Below, one piece after another: positions 31,919 through 32,897 of a stretch of 64,000 bases of DNA. The stretch lies in contig NZ_SAIS01000001.1 of assembly GCF_004360155.1 (NCBI RefSeq), positions 434,001 through 498,000 of the forward strand. Direction: 5' to 3'. The translations under genes were made by a program, and so were the position numbers. The stretch comes from Paraglaciecola marina (GTDB lineage Bacteria; Pseudomonadota; Gammaproteobacteria; Enterobacterales; Alteromonadaceae). The notes beneath the pieces were generated by a model. It had not been told where the DNA came from and did not search any database. It worked only from the letters and a program-made list of their open reading frames with translations. How positions within the stretch are numbered: position 1 is the first letter of the stretch; each line of letters starts with the position of its first letter.

Positions 31919-31993
31919 TAATAATAATAATAATAATAATAATAATAATAATAATAATAATAATAATAATAATAATAATAATAATAATAATAA
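31919..31993 (+). repeat. (TAA)25 trinucleotide microsatellite before a lipoprotein hydrolase gene
   Basis: Twenty-five uninterrupted TAA units, 75 bases, ending 16 bases before the ATG at 32010. A weak AAGGG ribosome site lies between. Such a pure tract is prone to slipped-strand length change. Since it lies in the promoter or leader, changes would alter promoter spacing or mRNA leader length rather than the reading frame. Confidence 0.97.
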
Positions 31994-32009
31994 AAATAAA
32001 AGGGTAACT

Positions 32010-32897
32010 ATGAAAATGAGTAAATTTTATAACGCTTTATTAGCAGGGCTTAGTCTGAGTATTGTGTTTTCAAGTTGTGCCGCGCCTATGGAGGCCATAC
32101 ATTCAACTACTGAGCCATCTTCTGGGGTCACTAAAGATTTTGTTTTAAATACTGGCTCATCGGCAATAATTGAACAACCAAAATGTAAGGCTAAATCAGC
32201 GGTTTTGTTGATCCATGGTTGGGTTGGGCAAAAAGATGAAGTGGGTGATTTATATAAAGATTTATCTGCGCAATTAAGAGGAAGTTGTATAGCTTCATTG
32301 CGGTTTGATGTGCAGGGAGAAGCAGAGCGAGAAAAAAGTAACTTTACTTTAACGAGTACGTTTAAAAGTAGAATGGAGGATACAGAGGCTGCCTTAGAAT
32401 ATTTAAAGAAGCAGTATCCTACATTACCATTAGTGGTAGTTGGTTTTAGCCTTGGAGGTGCAACGGCTATGGAGTTAGTTAGCCGTCATCCTAAAACCTT
32501 TGAGGGAGTAGTGTTATGGTCTAGTGCTTTAAATCCTAATGAAATTGTTACGCAACCTAGTTACTACGAAGCGGTTAGAGGTGCAATTGATGAAGGTGAA
32601 AGTGTACTTAAGGAAGCTTGGGCAGATTTAACCTTTACTCGACAACATGTAATTGGGATGTTGGGCTATAACCCTATTCGTAACTTAGGTGAGTTTAAAG
32701 GGCATTTGTTAGCCATACGGGGTACAGATGATTATCTACCAGCCCATGAAAAGGTGATTTTTAAGGCAAGTAGTGCTGTTAGTGAGGATGCATACTATTT
32801 AGGGGGAGCAGACCATATATTTGATGTTTTTGACCCCGAAAACAGTCAAAAGGCTAAAGTGTTAGGTTTGACTTTGAATTGGATAACTGGCCTGTAA
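32010..32897 (+). CDS. Alpha/beta hydrolase lipoprotein
   Basis: 295 residues. The signal has a lipobox-like VFSSC (Cys about residue 23), so it is probably a lipoprotein. The hydrolase fold shows LLIHGWVGQKDEV (oxyanion region), GFSLGGATAMEL (nucleophile Ser), RGTDDYL (acid) and GADHIFDVF (catalytic His). It resembles dienelactone-hydrolase or prolyl-oligopeptidase-type esterases. Its expression may be tuned by the (TAA)25 tract just upstream. Substrate unknown; an envelope location is inferred. Confidence 0.85.
   Translation: MKMSKFYNALLAGLSLSIVFSSCAAPMEAIHSTTEPSSGVTKDFVLNTGSSAIIEQPKCKAKSAVLLIHGWVGQKDEVGDLYKDLSAQLRGSCIASLRFDVQGEAEREKSNFTLTSTFKSRMEDTEAALEYLKKQYPTLPLVVVGFSLGGATAMELVSRHPKTFEGVVLWSSALNPNEIVTQPSYYEAVRGAIDEGESVLKEAWADLTFTRQHVIGMLGYNPIRNLGEFKGHLLAIRGTDDYLPAHEKVIFKASSAVSEDAYYLGGADHIFDVFDPENSQKAKVLGLTLNWITGL

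Follow-up and report, generated by a model that had tools for sequence, protein, structure and literature searches.

Genes and features of the locus

The window, a stretch of 64,000 nucleotides of the Paraglaciecola marina genome, holds a pure trinucleotide repeat directly in front of a gene for an alpha/beta hydrolase (Table 1). The original prediction placed 25 perfect TAA units in front of an alpha/beta hydrolase gene, with 16 bases left to its ATG, and both parts were borne out: the perfect tract ends 16 bases from the ATG at 32010, and the Pfam model Hydrolase_4 matched the protein over its cut-off. TRF extended the array to 31999, with 27 copies at 97% match.

Table 1. Features around the TAA tract (positions in the window)
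Feature	Position	Strand	Remarks
tRNA-Pro (GGG)	30206..30282	+	ARAGORN; two accessory genes downstream
Accessory NHL-repeat/SMP-30-like (propeller) gene	30497..31777	+	Upstream of the hydrolase gene, same strand
Hairpin after upstream gene	31782..31844	+	141-nt fold, z -2.82; 0/200 shuffles as stable
Weaker promoter-like pair, TTATCA - 17 - TATAGG	31870..31898	+	8 of 12; before the tract
Best sigma-70-like pair, TTAATA - 17 - AATAAT	31918..31946	+	9 of 12, weak; second hexamer within the first units of the tract
(TAA)25 perfect microsatellite	31919..31993	+	Sole genomic place with at least 5 full TAA units
AAGGG, likely Shine-Dalgarno site	32000..32004	+	5 bases 5' of the ATG; read from the sequence
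Alpha/beta hydrolase (Hydrolase_4, PF12146), 295 aa	32010..32897	+	N terminus resembles a signal peptide by eye; lipobox questionable

The surroundings of the tRNA gene were compared with stretches fetched around the flavin reductase gene of seven genus members. The dcd gene lay beside the flavin reductase gene in all seven, metG was present in four, the stretches being cut, and blastn matched the tRNA-Pro region in 7/7, with ARAGORN confirming the tRNA both for the window and for G004. An EAL gene resembling that of the window followed in G004 (67% identity) and G019 (62%). The gap between the flavin reductase and EAL genes of G004 was 722 bases and held tRNA-Pro together with incomplete copies of its 3' portion. 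These seven stretches gave no match to the propeller gene or to the hydrolase gene. The segment 30497-32897 thus appears to be accessory DNA next to a tRNA gene, and the tract looks to have come in with this DNA or to have arisen within it. Apart from its own copy, the propeller gene had a single weak match in the genus, and a homologue of 71% identity in G118, on a contig other than that of the G118 hydrolase gene.

In relatives, the full tRNA-Pro (GGG) gene has a number of incomplete copies of its 3' portion nearby, at L199 (7283-8003) and also at L196 and L197, as if the site had repeatedly taken up DNA. In the window the full gene alone was found. A second copy of the tRNA end, as left by an insertion, was sought, and none longer than 12 bases was present within the window. 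A repeated intergenic element was likewise rejected, the 141 bases before the tract having one genomic match, namely themselves.

The hydrolase and its relatives

The hydrolase showed distant sequence matches to structures named S33-type serine aminopeptidase, MHETase, cinnamoyl/feruloyl esterase and monoglyceride lipase, and none of the NCBIfam models matched it over the cut-off. The protein had been described as lipobox-bearing, a claim that proved weak. Its F-S-S-C does not fit [LVI][ASTVI][GAS]C, which we took as the lipobox pattern, and no other Cys among residues 1-75 fits it, whether in the window protein or in L202 and L203, the nearest two homologues found. As F at -3 is present in some lipoproteins, the mismatch is a weak test, and on these residues the lipoprotein status of the hydrolase appears doubtful.

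Homologues of the hydrolase were present in nine genus members at 43-47% identity, with none of the other window genes within 1.5 kb of them at E 1e-8. The nearer homologues belonged to other genera (72% identity in G066 and 62% in G118). At E 1e-40 or better, 7 of 196 genomes gave a match, that of Paraglaciecola marina included, and a first scan of the genome contigs with the hydrolase as query gave no relative. These searches covered one genome per species, and no further copy from the same species appeared in them.

When 17 loci (L019-L035) were searched for repeats of at least 15 bases and at least 4 units of 3-6 bases, a single locus was positive, the window's own. The TAA tract was not found at the nine genus homologues, nor at L202 or L203, where the longest TAA or TTA run was 6 bases; all these genes are located elsewhere. 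The leader of L202 is unlike that of the window, and the ORF of L203 begins 30 bases after another ORF. A repeat kept at homologous genes of relatives, a supporting though not essential sign of function, was therefore not seen at these loci.

Length and rarity of the TAA tract

Under a first-order Markov model of the window, (TAA)25 would be expected about 1e-33 times in 4.64 Mb on both strands, and 5-unit TAA runs about 0.1 times. The 4.64-Mb genome gave 21 matches to (TAA)5, all 21 inside the one tract, with no second place of at least 5 full units. A sample made up of the window and 20 further stretches (464 kb, 10% of the genome) had a next-longest trinucleotide repeat of 14 bases. With one (TAA)5 place in the genome and no other trinucleotide repeat above 14 bases in the 464 kb, there is no sign that the tract belongs to a set of repeats. 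It is a tandem run far above chance in its own genome, as expected of a microsatellite, and its location 5' of the ATG is among those of contingency loci, whose repeats lie in an ORF, leader or promoter. Since chance is excluded, slippage is the likely origin of (TAA)25.

Other repeats were observed during this search. At 63477-63504 of the window lies (TACTAG) x4.7 with no mismatch, outside the listed ORFs; its ACTAGT reading is its own complement, and no hexanucleotide repeat of the 464-kb sample exceeded its 28 bases. A 28-base unit repeated 2.7 times (83% match) occupies 24909-24984, between the ORFs 24269-24742 and 25053-25700. The genus member G011 carries (GAAAAT)4, 24 bases long, at L201 9693-9716, with its flavin reductase gene some 7 kb away.

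The tract had also been called rare in Alteromonadales, which holds for the family that was searched. TAA runs of at least 12 units occurred in 2 of 395 family genomes and in 1 of 22 within the genus, the latter being Paraglaciecola marina itself. The second family genome, G107, carries (TAA)17 at L036 1501-1551, 77 bases before an ORF start, at a place unrelated to that of the window. From their sequences we take the ORF after this run to be similar to leucyl aminopeptidase and the ORF before it to DinB.

Genes for mismatch repair were identified, the MutS and MutL models matching over their cut-offs with no stops. PMC4060949 describes a suppression of mono- to trinucleotide repeats in prokaryotes and an efficient repair of loops of 1-3 bases by the methyl-directed pathway. 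Given such repair, slippage at the TAA tract would probably be slower than at tetranucleotide loci. The purity of all 75 bases would speak for recent expansion; with short repeats suppressed and the mismatch repair genes present, a pure run of 25 units might also be selected.

Reading frame, promoter and leader predictions

The TAA unit is three bases long and there is no in-frame ATG, GTG or TTG upstream, so a change in unit number does not switch the frame. Upstream of the ATG the frame stays open over 43 codons, as far as the TAA at 31878, lacks all three start codons and passes through the tract as AAT (Asn) codons; switching by frame shift was accordingly rejected. A longer poly-Asn protein made from a rare start was set aside as well: ATA and CTG were the sole rare starts in frame among those sought, and no ribosome-binding site was seen before them by eye.

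Promoter-like sites between 31700 and 33000 were not above shuffles (4 found, shuffle mean 5.2). Besides the pairs of Table 1, one with 9 matches and a spacer of 16 lies at 31817, before the tract. The tract itself contains, on each strand, 23 hexamers that agree with the -10 consensus at 5 of 6 positions, and the best -35 hexamer wholly inside it scores 3 of 6. A core promoter between repeat and gene, as in the nadA and vlhA type of control, was not found in the 16 bases available, with any -35 inside the tract reaching at most 3 of 6. We simulated 15 tract lengths between 0 and 40 units. The best promoter pair was identical for 10-40 units and was the pair at 31817 for 0-8 units, while the predicted unpaired probability from the Shine-Dalgarno site to the ATG was 0.39-0.40 for 8-40 units and 0.37-0.45 over 0-40 units; these simple hexamer scores and foldings are blind to bending, S1, RNase E and regulators. 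The (UAA)n run was predicted to be unpaired except for its first bases.

The hairpin downstream of the propeller gene may end or attenuate upstream transcripts and thereby separate two transcripts; the number of terminator-like sites reported there was 0. A known RNA element was not supported, as the two matches obtained (E 0.21 and 0.29) were to snoRNA families of eukaryotes and fell below their cut-offs.

With no frame effect, no room for a core promoter and nearly flat predictions, an on/off switch of the hydrolase appears unlikely in these models. Leader length may, by analogy with uspA2, act in a graded way.

Survey of long TAA tracts in other genomes

When one genome per species was considered for bacteria and archaea, TAA runs of at least 20 units were uncommon yet recurrent, with at least 115 stretches, and those listed come from methanogens, DPANN archaea, Flavobacteriia and others. 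The survey comprised the 72 tracts of at least 20 units in other genomes that lay more than 400 bases from the stretch ends, the remaining 43 of the 115 stretches (tract 400 bases or less from an end) being left out. Among those outside the counts is L080, which has the layout of the window, with its tract 20 bases before the ATG.

With ORFs called crudely and several tracts coming from one genome, that of Methanobrevibacter curvatus, 39 of the 72 tracts were intergenic (23 tandem, 10 convergent and 6 divergent). Relative to random placement in the same stretches, the tracts were enriched between genes: 14 were tandem in the TAA sense against 3.7 expected, 9 tandem in the TTA sense against 4.0, 10 convergent against 2.8 and 6 divergent against 3.0. 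Within ORFs, 24 sense tracts were observed (28.5 expected) and 7 antisense tracts (29.1 expected); placement was unknown for 2 (0.9 expected).

Convergent gaps, which contain no start, were enriched 3.6-fold, versus 2.7-fold for all gaps with a start taken together (29 vs 10.7). The tandem TAA-sense class, the layout of the window, was the highest at 3.8-fold and little above the convergent class. Within 60 bases before a start, TAA-sense tracts made up 6 of the 39 intergenic cases and TTA-sense tracts 2; a stop within 60 bases before a tract in the TAA sense was commoner, at 13/39. Since both high classes have a gene ending before the tract in the TAA sense, and since 13/39 compares with 6/39, the survey points to a link with stop codons more than with promoters. 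Such a link could account for the enrichment of the tandem TAA-sense class, and a role for the tract of the window may still exist. By eye, the genes with a tract close before their start were a mixed lot.

At six of the 39 intergenic tracts (L068, L072, L136, L148, L152 and L153) the tract starts at the stop codon of the preceding ORF. These six suggest a TAA stop as the seed of the repeat, with the caveat that the ORFs are crude and that a TAA run ends any ORF that meets it in frame.

Discussion

Several known systems resemble the locus in part. The uspA2 gene of Moraxella catarrhalis also has a pure short-unit repeat upstream of its start codon with a graded effect possible, and the TAA tract, like the AGAT repeat of uspA2 (PMC4679880), may lie within the 5' untranslated region. 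The uspA2 repeat is a tetranucleotide 132 bp upstream whose variation and effect were measured (PMC7302503), whereas here a trinucleotide stands 16 bases from the ATG. According to PMC4679880, uspA1 and uspA2 were at its date the two cases of a repeat between promoter and start codon that had been studied by experiment. The (TAAA)n of nadA in Neisseria meningitidis is likewise an A+T-rich tandem repeat upstream of a gene; that tract, however, precedes the core promoter and is flanked on either side by NadR operators (PMC2791445), unlike the 16 bases to the ATG found here. The (GAA)n of vlhA in Mycoplasma gallisepticum shares the trinucleotide unit and the upstream position. It differs in that it precedes the transcription start by about 40 nt, serves a gene family and is described as active at 12 units (PMC6258824), whereas the present tract adjoins the ribosome-binding site of one gene. 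The TAACTGA heptamers of marine Beggiatoaceae are direct repeats immediately upstream of start codons, but they form 169 sets of at most 6 copies each in one genome (PMC4679880), in contrast to one trinucleotide tract. Long repeats have been linked to host dependence (Mrazek and others, as cited in PMC4060949; for long repeats in general, PMC4679880). Among the matches listed for the open-licence literature, as judged by titles and the starts of abstracts, none was a TAA leader repeat, and "TAA" had 0 occurrences in PMC5179023 and PMC11868660.

On balance we lean towards a microsatellite that expanded recently and is prone to slippage, that occupies the leader (or start region) of an accessory hydrolase gene gained by acquisition, and that influences expression weakly or not at all. 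An A+T-rich seed beside the ribosome-binding site would have grown by slippage to 25 pure units, and the tract probably still changes length at times. Transcription would run through it, and a change in length would alter the unstructured (UAA)n leader only, leaving the reading frame, the ribosome-binding site and the promoter hexamers unchanged, so that the effect would be small and the tract most likely tolerated, not selected. Two observations argue against such tolerance and for a leader-length rheostat, in which the tract is transcribed as a 5' untranslated region and its length grades the mRNA level or translation. A tuning repeat would be expected beside the ribosome-binding site, exactly where the tract adjoins it, and the tandem TAA-sense layout was the most enriched in the survey. 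An unpaired leader suits an S1-type or RNase-sensitive leader, with which the nearly unpaired (UAA)n of the prediction agrees. At uspA2 the AGAT number is associated with mRNA levels that differ by as much as 3.37-fold (PMC7302503). The rheostat has to be set against the flat accessibility predicted for the Shine-Dalgarno site and ATG and against the missing tract at the related loci, and we regard it as a tentative, rather unlikely alternative. A bolder form of it, improbable in our judgement, would make the single, recently born (TAA)n leader a length-tuned rheostat for an acquired exported hydrolase in which each unit is also a -10-like hexamer, so that the tract would be promoter array and variable leader at once.

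Unit number might instead alter the relative placement of promoter or regulator sites and give high/low or on/off cells, as with nadA TAAA and vlhA GAA (PMC2791445, PMC6258824). The many -10-like hexamers of the tract would fit, and the move of the best simulated pair to 31817 below 10 units means that a much shorter tract could alter the promoter. In the known cases, however, the promoter lies downstream of the repeat, for which the distance to the ATG is too short here; the -35 scores within the tract are poor and the promoter-like sites do not exceed shuffles. Since the tract is itself an array of -10-like hexamers, spacing stays constant as units are added, and such a switch seems very unlikely. 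It is about as hard to credit that the tract is real while its unit number, or part of it, is an artefact of assembly or sequencing. The genome is a draft of 75 contigs, and 43/115 survey tracts lay close to a stretch end, which is not always a contig end; against this, the tract is inside a 745-kb contig and the bases preceding it are single copy.

The observation behind the original prediction is thus confirmed and its interpretation, a phase-variable promoter or leader, partly supported. The tract is real, pure and very long, its position is leader- or promoter-like and length change by slippage is a fair inference; its position is the sole pointer to variable expression of the hydrolase. 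We consider the tract striking but probably an ordinary microsatellite. It would then be a clean case of a switch-like leader microsatellite that is probably a slippage by-product beside a newly acquired gene, and a caution for scans that infer phase variation from repeats alone. If the tract does tune the hydrolase, repeat-driven variation of expression would be extended to a lineage in which we saw no further repeats of this kind, and to units of a length that mismatch repair would be expected to keep in check.
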